27,598 nt of DNA. Source: a virus. A program made the translations under genes and the position numbers. The notes below the pieces were generated by a model that had not been told where the DNA came from, searched no databases, and worked only from the letters and a program-made list of their open reading frames with translations. The stretch covers positions 1 through 27,598 of the IMG/VR virus record IMGVR_UViG_3300042397_002275; one strand, written 5' to 3'. Below, piece by piece: positions 6,223 to 24,609 of the stretch (the first letter of the stretch is position 1; each line of letters opens with the position of its first letter).

Positions 6223-6822
6223 ATGATAGACATAATTAATGGTTTTAAACCAAGTGGAAAACAAAAGAAAAAAAATCAAATAATCCTCACACATTCCTCA
6301 AGAAATGTTGGGGATTATTTACAATCATTAAAACTTAGATTTAATGGAAAATTTAAAAGAATACCTAATTATATCATTACTCGAGATGGTAGAATACTCC
6401 AATTATTAGGTAATAATGAACATTCAAATTATTTTATATCGCCAAACATAAATAGAAATTCTATAATTGTTTGCTTGGAAAATTTAGGGTGGTTAGAAAA
6501 AGAACCACTAACTAATCATTACGTTAACTGGATTGGTGATATTTATAAAGGTGATGTGTATGAAAAAAAATGGAGAGACTATTATTTTTGGCAACCATAT
6601 ACTACAGTTCAAGTTGAAAAAACTTCAATATTATGTAGTAAATTATTAAAAGAAATGAATATTAAATCCCAAATAATTGGACACAACACAAAAATAAATG
6701 GTATTGAAAAATATGACGGAATAGTTAGTAAAAGTAATTTTGATACTGATTATACTGATGTTAGTCCGGCATTTAATTTTGAAGAATTTTTAAAAAAAAT
6801 AGAATATGAGCAATTCACATGA
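6223..6822 (+). CDS. N-acetylmuramoyl-L-alanine amidase endolysin (Amidase_2)
   Basis: 199 aa. Predicted zinc amidase cutting the bond between MurNAc and L-Ala in peptidoglycan. Zinc-ligand candidates fall in the family order: His24 in IILTHSS, His154 in IIGHN and Asp179 in DVSPAF, the place where PGRP/Amidase_2 enzymes carry Cys or Asp. 'PNYIITRDGRILQLL' (~48-62) and 'NRNSIIVCLENLG' (~77-89) match the central strands of the fold. No signal peptide, so release would need a holin. It begins the lysis-like cluster ahead of two overlapping spanin-like genes, and its 3' end overlaps the next gene by 17 nt. Confidence 0.85.
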   Translation: MIDIINGFKPSGKQKKKNQIILTHSSRNVGDYLQSLKLRFNGKFKRIPNYIITRDGRILQLLGNNEHSNYFISPNINRNSIIVCLENLGWLEKEPLTNHYVNWIGDIYKGDVYEKKWRDYYFWQPYTTVQVEKTSILCSKLLKEMNIKSQIIGHNTKINGIEKYDGIVSKSNFDTDYTDVSPAFNFEEFLKKIEYEQFT

Positions 6823-7408
6823 TGAAATAAAAAGATTAATGGAGGCGTCTAGAAAGATGTTGTCAAATAGTACGATTAATGAAGATATCAATCGTATTAG
6901 AGAAAAACATGGTATTATCAATGAACAAGTTGATTTAACAGACGATAATATTATTAAAAAAACAAACATTGCTAAAGACGTTGAAGATAAAATCGAAGAC
7001 GATACTAACACACCTGAGGATAAATCTCAAGGATATAGAGTTGTTGGTGGTATTATTGTTTTACATGGTAAAGAGAACAGTGATTTAGATTTGACCACTG
7101 ATGAGAAAATTGCTTTCCAAGAAACAATGAATGAGTTTGTGGAAGAAGTTTCGGATTTAGTAGATTTTAATAAATTAAATTTATATCCAAACAATGTTGA
7201 ATGGTCTGGTAGAATAATTGATTTTGATTTAGATTTCTTTTTTACTATTGGAGAGGAAAATGGTGTATACATTAATGGAGAAATGTTGAAAACTGATGAT
7301 GAGTTTTTAGAAATGATTAATAAATTAAAAGTTTTTTATGAAAAATTTAAATCAAAATGGTCTAAAGTTTTAGCATCAAGAAAACAAACAAGTAATACCC
7401 CTGAATAA
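6806..7408 (+). CDS. Unknown protein with an 'INEQ'-ending N-terminal leader
   Basis: 200 aa. Residues 1-41 form a charged helical leader with LMEA (11-14) and INEDINRIREKHGIINEQ (24-41). The latter aligns with residues 7-25 of the LysM protein at 24653. A disordered acidic linker follows (~42-75), then a compact domain (~76-190) with strands YRVVGGIIVLHG and WSGRIIDFDLDFFFTIG and a basic C-terminal helix. I think the domain recurs in large Bacteroidetes phages but know of no function. It starts inside the amidase gene (17 nt overlap), and its stop overlaps the start of the next gene (TAATG). The leader hints at a virion protein; this is inference. Confidence 0.82.
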   Translation: MSNSHDEIKRLMEASRKMLSNSTINEDINRIREKHGIINEQVDLTDDNIIKKTNIAKDVEDKIEDDTNTPEDKSQGYRVVGGIIVLHGKENSDLDLTTDEKIAFQETMNEFVEEVSDLVDFNKLNLYPNNVEWSGRIIDFDLDFFFTIGEENGVYINGEMLKTDDEFLEMINKLKVFYEKFKSKWSKVLASRKQTSNTPE

Positions 7409-7767
7409 TGAAAGATGTTGTAGGTAATAATACTCAAAATATATTATTAATAATAGTGATTGTATTAGCGGGATGGAATATCTTTACCACCAATAATGTT
7501 AAAACTGATGTTAAATCTTATAAAGAAAAAATAGAATCTCTTCAAACAGAAATTGATTCGTCAAAAAAAGTTAATAAAACTATTGATATTAAAATTGATT
7601 CTATTAAACAAAATGTTATTAGTATAACTAAAGATATTAATCACATAGATAATAATATAACCATAATTAAAAAACAAACAAATGAAAAAGTTAATAGTGT
7701 TGACACTCTTACTGCTAACGAGCTTGAGCAGTTTTTCACAGACAGATACAACAAAAGTACGAATTAG
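7408..7767 (+). CDS. Inner-membrane spanin-like protein (Rz-type layout)
   Basis: 119 aa. An N-terminal membrane anchor (~11-28, ILLIIVIVLAGWNIF) is followed by a long Lys/Asp/Ile-rich coiled coil (~30-95) and a short C-terminal segment (LTANELEQFFTDRY). This is the layout of an i-spanin: N-in anchor with a periplasmic coiled coil. The 3' 86 nt also encode, in another frame, the start of a secreted protein, as Rz and Rz1 genes overlap in many phages. It follows the amidase and one further gene. Function rests on architecture and position, not on recognisable sequence homology. Confidence 0.75.
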   Translation: MKDVVGNNTQNILLIIVIVLAGWNIFTTNNVKTDVKSYKEKIESLQTEIDSSKKVNKTIDIKIDSIKQNVISITKDINHIDNNITIIKKQTNEKVNSVDTLTANELEQFFTDRYNKSTN

Positions 7768-8086
7768 TACACCAATTGCAAAATTGGCTATAAAAGATAT
7801 TATTAAAGGTGATGGTTGTATACTTGAGTTAAAATTAACTCAGGAAAAATTAATTAAAACTGAAGAAAGAGAAAAAGAAAAAGATGGTCATATCTTATCG
7901 CTTGAAGATAAAGATAAAAATAATAATTTTATGATGGGTAAAAAAGATGAACAATTAAAAACCTCAGATGAGTTATCTAACAATTTACGTAAGGAACTTA
8001 AAGAACAAAGAACAAAAAATTTTTTTTGGAAAGTTGGTACTTACGTTGGAATCATAACTTCAACCTATCTTTTATTATTAAAATAA
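7682..8086 (+). CDS. Secreted, membrane-tethered protein nested in the spanin-like gene
   Basis: 134 aa. A clear signal peptide, MKKLIVLTLLLLTSLSSFSQ, with the Bacteroidetes-typical 'SFSQ' end. A charged coiled-coil region follows (~40-108), then a C-terminal hydrophobic segment (~112-133, FFWKVGTYVGIITSTYLLLL). No convincing lipobox Cys, so it is not a standard o-spanin lipoprotein; the C-terminal helix could anchor it. The first 86 nt overlap the upstream gene in another frame. Codons there (CTG, CTA, ACG, AGC) differ from the AT-rich norm because both frames are coding. Probably the partner of the upstream protein in lysis. Confidence 0.75.
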   Translation: MKKLIVLTLLLLTSLSSFSQTDTTKVRISTPIAKLAIKDIIKGDGCILELKLTQEKLIKTEEREKEKDGHILSLEDKDKNNNFMMGKKDEQLKTSDELSNNLRKELKEQRTKNFFWKVGTYVGIITSTYLLLLK

Positions 8087-10297: not shown

Positions 10298-10330
10298 TTC
10301 TCCATAGACAACATCTATGGAGAATTTTTT
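10298..10330 (+). terminator. Terminator whose stem contains the next gene's start codon
   Basis: An 11-bp perfect stem TTCTCCATAGA (10298-10308) / TCTATGGAGAA (10314-10324) with a 5-nt loop, followed by T6 (10325-10330). It ends the transcript of the 8905 gene. The ATG of the next gene (10317-10319) lies inside the 3' arm and the T run encodes its Phe-Phe (codons 4-5). Confidence 0.88.
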
Positions 10331-10784
10331 TAACTACATAACAAAACCTTTAAAACCGGAAGATATAGATATTTGGTTTAAAATGAATAATATAACTTCT
10401 GAAAAATTGGAGTTGTATTCTGATTTTTGCCATACATTATATATTTTAATACATGAGACCTACTTAGGTCAAGATAATGTATCTACGGAAACTAAAATCA
10501 GGCTAACAGATGATGATAATGAAAAACACTTTGAATGGTGTTGGATAAAAATTATTAACAACTTCCAAAAAGAAAATATTGTTTTTCACAAAAAAGGGGA
10601 ACATTTTGATTACTTCCAATCATTTTTTGATGAAATATTTTATAATCAAATAGAAAATAAAATAAAAAATTCAATAAGTAGTTTTTTTACAGATTTATTT
10701 AATATGAAGAAATCTTTTACAAAATCAGATTTAGATATGATTTTAACCATTTATAAAACATTAGATAAAAATCTTAAAAAATAA
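10317..10784 (+). CDS. Hypothetical soluble helical protein
   Basis: 155 aa, rich in Phe, Tyr, Trp, Ile and Lys, mostly helical, with LKPEDIDIWFKMNNI near 12-26 and CWIKIINNF near 76-84. No catalytic motif recognised; I believe similar proteins occur in other large Bacteroidetes phages. The ATG at 10317 sits in the 3' arm of a terminator stem; the next in-frame ATG is at 10383 (residue 23). The sequence from residue 1 looks like a normal protein N-terminus, so I keep 10317. Translation from read-through RNA would face a masked start codon. No clear promoter of its own is visible. Confidence 0.72.
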   Translation: MENFFNYITKPLKPEDIDIWFKMNNITSEKLELYSDFCHTLYILIHETYLGQDNVSTETKIRLTDDDNEKHFEWCWIKIINNFQKENIVFHKKGEHFDYFQSFFDEIFYNQIENKIKNSISSFFTDLFNMKKSFTKSDLDMILTIYKTLDKNLKK

Positions 10785-10866
10785 AAAAATCCTTTATAGT
10801 GTTTACTATACGATTAAAAAAATTACTTTATAAGTATTAAAAATAAATTAATTAACACAATTTGAA

Positions 10867-11043
10867 ATGGAAACATTAGAACAAATTAAATCTTTAACCG
10901 AAGAGTTATCAGTCGATACTTCAAAATTTTTTGGAGGTAATAAAAGTGCAGGAACAAGAGCACGAAAATCTGCACAAGATTTGAAAAAATTATTAGATGT
11001 CTTGAGAAAAGAGATTTTATCTGAAAGAAAAAAAGACGAGTAA
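10867..11043 (+). CDS. Histone H1/Hc1-like DNA-binding protein
   Basis: 58 aa, ATG 10867 to TAA 11041-11043. Residues ~25-40 read GNKSAGTRARKSAQDL, followed by a Lys/Leu-rich helix (KKLLDVLRKEILSERKK). This matches the short Bacteroidetes histone H1-like (Hc1-family) proteins, whose hallmark is N-K-x-A-G-T-R-A-R-K followed by a basic helix. Such proteins bind DNA non-specifically and are taken to be nucleoid-associated. In a phage it could coat phage DNA or alter the host nucleoid. Its stop overlaps the next start (TAATG), so it is co-translated with a small membrane protein. The family call rests on this short motif but is quite specific. Confidence 0.8.
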   Translation: METLEQIKSLTEELSVDTSKFFGGNKSAGTRARKSAQDLKKLLDVLRKEILSERKKDE

Positions 11044-11231
11044 TGGATAGTATTGATACAATTTTTTTATTTGTATTTATCTTTTCAGTTTTAACTGTTT
11101 TTAGAACAGTTGCTAGATTGGTAAGTTCCCTGTTCTCAAACCCACCAAAGAGATTTCTATGGAATAGAGGGGAACTTATTTATCTTGGATTGGCAATATC
11201 GTATTGTTTAACCTATATTATTAAAAATTAA
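11043..11231 (+). CDS. Small two-helix membrane protein
   Basis: 62 aa. Two hydrophobic helices, ~7-28 (IFLFVFIFSVLTVF...) and ~45-59 (IYLGLAISYCLTYII), are joined by a basic loop containing NPPKRFLWNR. The start overlaps the Hc1-like stop by one base (TAATG), and the next gene follows 2 nt after its stop. Function unknown. Size and topology would suit a holin or superinfection-exclusion protein, but nothing specific supports either. Confidence 0.7.
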   Translation: MDSIDTIFLFVFIFSVLTVFRTVARLVSSLFSNPPKRFLWNRGELIYLGLAISYCLTYIIKN

Positions 11232-11233
11232 TT

Positions 11234-11671
11234 ATGAGTTTGTATAAAGAATTTTCGGAGTTATTACCCTATATTCAATCAGTAAGAAAGATTGAAAAAT
11301 ATTTATCGTTTGATATTAGTTTTCCGATATCGTGGAAACTACCTAAAAAATATGTCCAAGAAGACAAAGTAATGGAACAGGAGAATAAGGTTCCTGGTAA
11401 TCGTACTTTTTCATTTGTTGCTGAAATAAATGAAAACGATATTGAACAAGTGACAGAAAATTTACAAAATATTATTAAGTATAATCTTGAGAGAGAAGAA
11501 AAAGATAAATTGTTTCAAAACAAAGTTGATGAATTAAAAAGTATTTTTGAAAAACAAAATTTAGAAAGTTTACAAAATTTAAAATTTGATTTAAAGACTA
11601 AACAATTAACTAAATTAAAACTTGAAGATAATGAAGAAGAGCTTACAACAACTCGAGTGGTTACAGAATGA
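11234..11671 (+). CDS. Conserved-looking phage protein of unknown function
   Basis: 145 aa. N-terminal ~60 residues: LYKEFSELLPYIQSVRKIE then a hydrophobic patch with FPISWKLPKKYV. The middle is a strand-helix unit (TFSFVAEINENDIEQV, ~55-70), and the C-terminus is a long Lys/Glu/Leu coiled-coil helix. I associate this pattern with conserved hypotheticals in other Bacteroidetes phages but cannot name a family. The 3' 41 nt overlap the next gene in another frame. Its small partners immediately downstream suggest a three-gene unit (11234, 11631, 11783). Confidence 0.75.
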   Translation: MSLYKEFSELLPYIQSVRKIEKYLSFDISFPISWKLPKKYVQEDKVMEQENKVPGNRTFSFVAEINENDIEQVTENLQNIIKYNLEREEKDKLFQNKVDELKSIFEKQNLESLQNLKFDLKTKQLTKLKLEDNEEELTTTRVVTE

Positions 11672-13891: not shown

Positions 13892-14740
13892 ATGGCATTA
13901 TCATACATCGGGGGAAAATCAAAAATAGGTAAGTGGATTGTTCCATTCATACCTCAAGACATTGAAACATACGTGGAACCATTTTCAGGTATGTTTTGGG
14001 TGTTCTTTAATATGGACCTAACCAAATACCCAAACTTAAAAGAAGTTGTATATAACGACTTCAATCCACTTAATTATAATTTATTTCAATGTCTTCAGAA
14101 TCCTGAGAGATTGTTAGAGGTTGTTAACTCAATTCCGTGTCAACAAAGAGATGAGTTCCCAACACCGGACATCTATAAAGAACAATTTATCAGCTTCCAA
14201 GCTGAAATATTTAAAACAGATTTCAGGGTAGAGGCTTACGATTATCAGGTTGCAGCTAAATACGCTTATGTACTAGCTCAGGTATTCTCAGGGTCTAAAC
14301 CGGAAACAAGTTCATTTATAGACTTGAAAGGGAAATATAAATCAAAGTATCTTACCTTCAGAGATAAGTTATCTAAACCGGATTGGGTGGAACATTTCTT
14401 AAAGATTACTAAAGTTGAAAATTTAGACTTTCAAGATGTTATTCAAAAGTATGATGGACCATCTACTTATGTTTACGCTGACCCCCCATATTGGAAGACA
14501 GAGAACTATTATAACAACCACGACTTTGATAGTAAAGACCACGAGAGATTAGCTGATTGTCTAAAAGGTATTCAGGGGAAGTTCTCATTATCGTATTATG
14601 ATTTCCCACAATTACATACTTGGTTCCCTCCTCTTCAATATGTTTGGGAGAAGAAAGAATTTGCTAAAGCTGCTGCGGCTAAGAAAGGTAAAGTTCAGAA
14701 CATGGGGGAAGAATTACTAATTATGAATTATAGAAAATAA
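13892..14740 (+). CDS. D12-class N6-adenine DNA methyltransferase (Dam-like)
   Basis: 282 aa. Transfers methyl from S-adenosylmethionine to adenine N6. The order is typical of Dam/D12 enzymes: the N-terminal SYIGGKSKIGKWI (SAM site), motif I EPFSGMFWVFFN at 29-40 (the usual G-S-G replaced by S-G-M-F), then ~150 residues including the target-recognition region, then catalytic motif IV DPPY at 197-200. FSLSYYD (~231-237) follows as a late strand. No restriction enzyme lies beside it, so it is probably an orphan phage methylase for anti-restriction or regulation. Target sequence not predictable here. Confidence 0.9.
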   Translation: MALSYIGGKSKIGKWIVPFIPQDIETYVEPFSGMFWVFFNMDLTKYPNLKEVVYNDFNPLNYNLFQCLQNPERLLEVVNSIPCQQRDEFPTPDIYKEQFISFQAEIFKTDFRVEAYDYQVAAKYAYVLAQVFSGSKPETSSFIDLKGKYKSKYLTFRDKLSKPDWVEHFLKITKVENLDFQDVIQKYDGPSTYVYADPPYWKTENYYNNHDFDSKDHERLADCLKGIQGKFSLSYYDFPQLHTWFPPLQYVWEKKEFAKAAAAKKGKVQNMGEELLIMNYRK

Positions 14741-23745: not shown

Positions 23746-24609
23746 ATGATAGAAACAGGAAAGATAATTAATGGAGATTGTATTGAGGTAATGAAAACTT
23801 TCCCGGAAGGTTCAATTGATTTATTGGTGACATCACCACCCTACGGAGTTAACATCAAATATGATGTTTATAATGATAGTATTCCTATGGATGAATATTG
23901 GGATTTTACAACGCAGTGGTTAACAGAATCTTATAGAGTATTAAAAGATGATGGTCGGATAGCAATCAACGTTCCTATAGAAATTAACGTACAGGAAAGA
24001 GGTGGTAGAATATTATTCAACGCAGAGTTTTGGATGAAAATGAAAGAGGTTGGGTTTAAATTTTATGGAATGGTTGACCTTACAGAAGATAGCCCACATA
24101 GAGTTAGACAAACAGCTTGGGGTTCTTGGATGAGCGCAAGTTGTCCTTACATCTATAATCCTAAGGAATGTATTATTCTAGCTTACAAGAAAACTAATAA
24201 GAAATTAACCAAAGGGGAGTCTCAGTGGTTAGGTACACCAACTGAAGTAACTACAGAAGATGGTAAAACTAAAAATAAAATGGTTTATCAGGACGAAGAT
24301 AAGAAAGAGTTTATGAACTTGGTTTTTGGTAGATGGGAATATTTTGCAGATACTAGGTCGTTAACTAAAGCAACATTCTCAATGGATATTCCATCAAAAG
24401 CAATTAAGATATTATCATATAAAAATGATATAGTTCTTGACCCTTTTATGGGAAGTGGAACATCGGCATTTGCTGCTGAGTTATTGGATAGACGATGGAT
24501 TGGGATTGAGTTATCTCCGGACTATACAGAGATTGCGAGAAAAAGAGTCCAATCGTTAATTGATGAACATAAACAAACAAAATTAGAATTAAAAGAAGAG
24601 GTGTTATAA
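23746..24609 (+). CDS. Beta-class DNA methyltransferase (N4-cytosine or N6-adenine)
   Basis: 287 aa. Catalytic motif IV TSPPY at 29-33 comes first, and the SAM-binding motif I LDPFMGSGTSAFAA (Asp232 to Gly238) comes near the C-terminus. This permuted order defines the beta class. TSPPY is commonest in N4-cytosine enzymes but also occurs in N6-adenine ones, so the base is uncertain. Residues ~115-210 should hold the target-recognition region. No nuclease is adjacent, so this is the second orphan methylase in the window. The stop codon is in the loop of a terminator. Confidence 0.9.
   Translation: MIETGKIINGDCIEVMKTFPEGSIDLLVTSPPYGVNIKYDVYNDSIPMDEYWDFTTQWLTESYRVLKDDGRIAINVPIEINVQERGGRILFNAEFWMKMKEVGFKFYGMVDLTEDSPHRVRQTAWGSWMSASCPYIYNPKECIILAYKKTNKKLTKGESQWLGTPTEVTTEDGKTKNKMVYQDEDKKEFMNLVFGRWEYFADTRSLTKATFSMDIPSKAIKILSYKNDIVLDPFMGSGTSAFAAELLDRRWIGIELSPDYTEIARKRVQSLIDEHKQTKLELKEEVL

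Follow-up and report, generated by a model that had tools for sequence, protein, structure and literature searches.

A stand-alone Hc1-domain gene and its closely spaced two-helix neighbour in a probable large phage of Bacteroidota

The DNA analysed in this study (hereafter the window) is a 27,598-base virus record. It contains a short gene coding for a protein composed of a single Hc1 domain, directly followed by a gene for a small, probably membrane, protein. The features of this region are as follows:

6223-6822: Amidase_2 protein; the block containing Hc1 follows it
10317-10784, + strand: upstream neighbour of Hc1, conserved in 80/80 related loci
10802-10829, + strand: promoter-like pair TTTACT (10802-10807) and TACTTT (10824-10829) with a spacing of 16 nt, conservation of the first box and a putative function
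10867-11043, + strand: Hc1-domain protein of 58 aa, a stand-alone PF07432 domain (ORF, Pfam match and predicted structure)
10936-10968, + strand: core of the family, residues 24-34 (GNKSAGTRARK), defined by alignment
11043-11231, + strand: two-helix, probably membrane, protein of 62 aa (ORF and predicted structure)
11234-11671, + strand: gene after the membrane protein, conserved in 80/80 related loci

The Hc1 ORF (10867-11043, + strand) begins with ATG and ends with TAA; an in-frame TAA is located six codons 5′ of the ATG, with no intervening start codon. The original prediction of a 58-codon gene carrying GNKSAGTRARKSAQDL was borne out by this ORF and its 58-aa translation. The protein matches the Pfam family Hc1 (PF07432) over profile positions 1-57 of 57, with an E-value of 4.9e-18 and a score of 65.2 bits (the curated cut-off, applied to the whole-protein score, is 23.5 bits), which confirms the proposal that a protein of the Hc1 family is carried by a phage. 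Hc1 was also above the Pfam cut-off in a search at the DNA level, while the best match to the protein in PHROGs was to an unrelated family (E 0.21). Of eight homologous proteins taken from bacteria and other phages, seven exceed the PF07432 cut-off and the eighth lies exactly on it. The Hc1 gene is under purifying selection: its ratio of summed pN to summed pS, calculated for the window together with eight close relatives, is 0.11, and that of the membrane-protein gene is 0.36. The full-length Pfam match, the low pN/pS ratio and the relatives encoded by 273 of 331 pattern matches in viral contigs (described below) place this ORF beyond chance. Judging from its sequence, the window protein is a genuine relative of the Hc1 family.

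The AlphaFold2 model of the protein (128 aligned sequences; mean pLDDT of 96.2) comprises helices at residues 2-22 and 27-56. Hc1 is therefore predicted to be a two-helix hairpin, which corresponds to the N-terminal Hc1 domain alone. Residues G29, R31, R33 and R47 are invariant in all 128 aligned phage and bacterial sequences, and the window protein contains the complete GNKxAGTRxRK core and the later invariant Arg that characterize the family. Position 40 is basic in 38 of 38 rows of the lineage, but is occupied by Glu in 17 of the 43 bacterial rows, and so the basic surface as a whole is not conserved. The net charge of the protein is +2, within a range of 1 to 4 for its group.

Chlamydial Hc1 (HctA) is homologous to the window protein in its N-terminal half (positions 5-58 of the 121 in the HctA model NF051889 of NCBIfam, with a score of 22 bits, below the equivalog cut-off of 100), but differs in the possession of a lysine-rich C-terminal DNA-binding half. 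No such half is present in the window protein, which ends at residue 58, and each of the 297 scored ORFs for viral Hc1 ends within 7 residues of the domain. According to the accessible part of PMC2848022, the N-terminal half of the chlamydial protein is responsible for self-pairing and the lysine-rich C-terminal half for DNA binding, and expression of this protein in E. coli results in nucleoid compaction. In Chlamydia, condensation of the nucleoid still occurred after knockdown of hctA, hctB or both genes (PMC13317200, accessible part). Because the DNA-binding half of chlamydial Hc1 is missing here, homology alone is not proof of DNA binding. The family name Hc1 is correct, but DNA compaction, with which this name is commonly associated, is tied to the part that is lacking in this protein. 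The original prediction can be upheld with regard to the Hc1 family and the coupling to a two-helix gene; its term "nucleoid protein", as stated, is unsupported in view of the HctA score, the missing tail and the net charge of +2.

No solved structure related by sequence to the Hc1 protein was found, and the fold searches returned only generic hairpins, with matches no better than those to designed hairpins. A search of a viral structure library identified two proteins named "Histone H1" (E 0.15 and 0.21). The chains ranked first by Foldseek were ribosomal (best E 0.41); we take them to be uL29/eL35. A kinship with uL29 was rejected in favour of a common shape: the hhalign probability against 12 L29 sequences was 0.3%, and VIA-align gave designed or unrelated hairpins the same Z (7.4-8.7, among the matches listed). 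The Pfam search, read up to E = 1, included no match to L29 (PF00831). The globular domain of eukaryotic linker histone H1 is a winged helix; this protein was also discarded as a relative, since the predicted structure of Hc1 has two helices and no strands.

A scan of viral contigs with the window protein revealed that 273 of 331 pattern matches encode relatives, 80 of which were kept. Scans with other members of the family gave 264 of 358 (80 kept), 52 of 60 (52 kept) and 364 of 419 (80 kept). Hc1 genes of the stand-alone type are present in many phage contigs. Matches at E up to 1 were found in 20 of 50,697 records of annotated phages (best identity 53%); 15 of these 20 are weak matches from Prevotella Lak phages, where one copy scores well against the Hc1 profile. 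The "histone H1" of Synechococcus phage S-SRM01 resembles the window protein in exceeding the PF07432 cut-off, but this phage belongs to the Kyanoviridae, and the next gene, which overlaps, is not membrane-like. The cultivated Flavobacterium phage immuto contains a Hc1-like gene, annotated as hypothetical, directly after GroES/GroEL (L084:6379-6552). This copy is divergent, with the core KKSQASARKA and a score exactly at the Pfam cut-off (23.5 bits). Since immuto is a cultivated phage carrying a divergent relative, a host-phage pair suitable for experiments may exist. The huge uncultured phage LR745206.1 (634,780 bases) has two different Hc1-matching places, at approximately 246.5 kb and 567.4 kb, the second of which has a longer N-terminus. 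In some other phages (L381:1333-2546, L398:2165-2563 and L359:2181-2933), Hc1 is adjoined by baseplate wedge, hub or lysozyme genes, which is not the case in the window.

The scan of bacterial genomes with the single protein yielded at least 194 relatives; the scan with alignment A1 gave 195 pattern matches and no relative. The stand-alone Hc1 proteins of Bacteroidota, Fibrobacterota and Planctomycetota share the GNKxAGTRARK core with the window protein, and 59 of 80 were read as 58 aa. They differ from it in sequence, the best near-full-length identity among the matches listed being 52% (residues 1-54, Phycisphaerae), and in their genetic context: the membrane partner was found in none of 80 bacterial Hc1 loci, all 80 of which are matched by the Hc1 profile. 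Among the matches listed, full-length identities to Bacteroidota proteins are mostly 43-48%, and short matches to the core reach 67%. Within a Flavobacterium-centred family, Hc1 is present in 5 of 80 genomes, including the central one (G012), which was picked for Hc1; as a positive control, 18 of 18 known carriers were recovered by the search. Cellular Hc1 has a patchy distribution, and mobile elements may be its carriers. Several genomes (G055, G036, G098, G101, G102, G104, G110, G111 and G112) have 2-4 copies, and two of those in G055 lie 1.1 kb apart.

The Hc1 stop codon and the ATG of the following gene overlap by one base (TAATG): the A at position 11043 closes the TAA and opens the ATG. 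The 62-aa product of this gene, for which no match was found in Pfam, PHROGs or NCBIfam, has predicted helices at residues 3-31 and 42-61 (20 sequences, mean pLDDT of 76). The ORFs and these helices agree with the earlier proposal of a TAATG coupling to a two-helix, probably membrane, protein. Residues 22-44, which span the last part of helix 1 together with the turn, have a net charge of +1 to +3 in all 20 sequences, and given this positive charge, the turn would face the cytoplasm under the positive-inside rule.

A profile of the membrane protein matches 172 of the 297 Hc1-holding viral and phage loci, each time directly after Hc1; the loci share contigs and many are near-copies, the 172 pairs representing 91 distinct 350-nt stretches. 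The partner was detected in 80/80 and 80/80 loci of the two nearest sets, in 12/52 of the third, in 0/80 of the fourth and in 0/5 from the phage collection, which leaves 125 of the 297 loci with Hc1 and without the partner. When the membrane protein itself was used for scanning, Hc1 was located immediately upstream in each of the 22 loci identified (20 by string match and 2 by profile). In 88 of the 91 distinct loci, the membrane-protein gene starts at a distance of -8 to +7 nt from where the Hc1 stop codon ends, and TAATG is one arrangement among several (18 of 91). In a phylogenetic tree built from 60 columns and 128 rows, and left open at 69 of its 125 internal branches, the partner-bearing rows need three changes and not one, with L271 placed apart and L297 and L298 in open branches. 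The tree was used solely to place the group of the window, which lies outside the cellular Bacteroidota rows.

The constancy of the gene pair was also apparent in loci selected on a basis other than Hc1, namely those fetched by the amidase gene, located approximately 4 kb upstream of Hc1. Both genes are present in 68 of the 68 such loci that reach at least 6 kb downstream. Among all 80 amidase-fetched loci, 73 contain Hc1, and two of these (L417 and L457) have no membrane-gene match. When the gene after the membrane protein was used, both genes were found in 79 of 80 loci, the exception (L500) having only 40 bases before the match. The flanking genes are conserved as listed above, and DnaJ is present in 79 of 80 related loci. 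As the whole block is about equally constant, adjacency does not prove a joint action of Hc1 and the membrane protein.

The window also encodes a SbcC-like protein, a sigma factor, DnaJ, two DNA methyltransferases and the Amidase_2 protein. The methyltransferases, of types D12 and N6_N4 (13892-14740 and 23746-24609), are both located on this one 27.6-kb fragment. Near-identical loci were found on contigs of up to 318 kb, and the window probably derives from a large phage whose host belongs to the Bacteroidota. Eleven related contigs (270-322 kb), which were picked for holding Hc1 and may be incomplete, contain one Hc1 gene each; since they were picked in this way, its presence in 11/11 is not evidence of constancy. 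HSP70 is encoded by 6 of the 11 and a baseplate wedge match is present in all of them, at least 40 kb from Hc1 in each case, while no match to HU (PF00216) was found in any of these picked, possibly incomplete contigs.

The accessible part of PMC12619734 describes the moraphages as large aquatic phages with predicted hosts in the Bacteroidota and with DnaJ/DnaK genes, and reports that PF07432 is encoded by 4/4 complete moraphage genomes. The presence of Hc1 in such phages is thus already in print. The window phage shares PF07432 with the moraphages, and the size (270-322 kb), HSP70 (6/11) and baseplate wedge (11/11) of the related contigs, together with the sigma factor and DnaJ of the window, fit their description. 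Judging from this published description, it is likely that the window phage belongs to the moraphage lineage. The accessible text differs from the present analysis in giving no membrane partner, domain analysis or comparison with cellular Hc1. No further paper on phage Hc1 was found in the open-licence literature on Hc1, PF07432 or histone H1 in phages.

A detailed inspection of the sequences preceding Hc1 revealed a TT[TG]AC box approximately 41-70 nt ahead of the ATG in 80 of the 84 distinct regions, compared with a mean of 9 and a maximum of 18 in shuffled sequences, a rough control because single bases were shuffled and the regions are related. The conservation of this box suggests that Hc1 has a promoter of its own. 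A T4-type late promoter was dismissed, since TATAAATA occurs 7 times in the window against 7.0 expected, and TATAAGTA is present at 10829-10836, but its position upstream of Hc1 varies among the relatives. The pattern TTTACN{15,19}TANNTTT has 7 matches in the window (3.6 expected), none of them upstream of Hc1. Amidase genes are usually late. The cues to the timing of Hc1 conflict: its own promoter-like box, the amidase upstream and the tail or baseplate neighbours seen elsewhere point different ways. The two overlapping small ORFs that follow the Amidase_2 gene (7408-7767 and 7682-8086) look like a putative spanin pair, and positions 6223-8086 form a lysis-like group; the segment 7477-7929 shows 73.8% DNA identity to phage immuto.

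We tentatively favour, at slightly less than even confidence, a reading in which Hc1 is a small dimeric, probably nucleic-acid-touching protein that acts in the infected cell. The stand-alone Hc1 domain, of a kind that Bacteroidota, Fibrobacterota and Planctomycetota also possess, would form a short two-helix hairpin pairing with itself, by analogy with the N-terminal half of the chlamydial protein. The conserved basic residues R31, R33, K34 and R47, situated in the turn and along helix 2, could let the dimers contact nucleic acid. During infection by moraphage-like jumbo phages, the protein would then serve as a small architectural protein on the DNA of the phage or of its host. What is observed is that the protein belongs to the family, that its gene is constrained and constant in the lineage, and that the next gene overlaps it or starts close behind. 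The architectural reading is favoured by the PF07432 match, the confident hairpin (pLDDT 96.2), the residues invariant in 128/128 sequences, the pN/pS of 0.11, the 68/68 loci and the lack of HU matches in the related contigs, and, by analogy, by the compaction of the E. coli nucleoid by chlamydial Hc1 (PMC2848022, accessible part). Against it stand the missing DNA-binding half, the low net charge, the variable position 40, the condensation left intact by HctA knockdown (PMC13317200, accessible part), the lack of a solved relative and fold matches at the level of designed hairpins. No binding data on a stand-alone Hc1 domain were found in the open-licence literature.

A role in virion packing, with Hc1 as a late protein that condenses phage DNA for packaging or is packed together with it, was proposed by the authors of the moraphage study (PMC12619734, accessible part). 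We consider this unlikely. Baseplate wedge, hub or lysozyme genes do adjoin Hc1 in some other phages, the 71 neighbour proteins scanned include 4 baseplate wedge, 3 baseplate hub and 3 tail tube matches, and the block in the window comes after an Amidase_2 protein, a kind of gene that is usually late. However, most of the 71 proteins gave no match to a structural family, the baseplate wedge match is at least 40 kb from Hc1 in 11/11 lineage contigs, a conserved promoter-like box precedes Hc1, and the protein has neither a lysine-rich tail nor a high net charge. It is similarly unlikely that the hairpin binds and regulates the two-helix protein in a job unrelated to DNA, e.g. in controlling lysis or the envelope. 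Both genes are constantly found together in the lineage, the pair is absent from 80/80 bacterial Hc1 loci, the starts are closely spaced (-8 to +7 nt in 88/91 distinct loci), and the upstream region contains an amidase gene as well as a pair of small ORFs that overlap; yet adjacency is weak evidence in a block that is equally conserved as a whole, 125/297 viral and phage loci have Hc1 without the partner, and the invariant core is common to partnerless bacterial Hc1.

The two genes may instead form a phage-only module, in which the two-helix protein holds the dimeric Hc1 hairpin at the inner membrane and thereby anchors phage or host DNA, although we regard this as rather improbable. Tethering of DNA near the membrane was envisaged in the original prediction; the pair is constant in this lineage, but its other neighbours are equally so. 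The original prediction also envisaged competition with host Hc1. A decoy of this sort would be a phage domain that pairs with the host protein and blocks it. The phage protein has the same length and core as the host forms, and the conserved half is the one responsible for dimerisation in Chlamydia (PMC2848022, accessible part). This idea is weakened by the presence of Hc1 in only 5/80 genomes of the Flavobacterium-centred family (its centre G012 included); moreover, the host forms of the same length also lack the lysine-rich tail, leaving no host protein of greater length for it to disable. Such a decoy is very improbable.

The Hc1 domain is spread, in its stand-alone form, through phages and several bacterial phyla, while the functional work found is on Chlamydia, where DNA binding is assigned to the part absent from the stand-alone proteins. 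A phage gene kept in 68/68 sampled loci offers a simple handle on the function of the bare Hc1 domain, and the constant membrane partner provides a testable clue to its role. If the two-gene module exists, and anchors either host DNA or the phage genome as it enters or replicates, it would represent a membrane-bound nucleoid organiser of jumbo phages.
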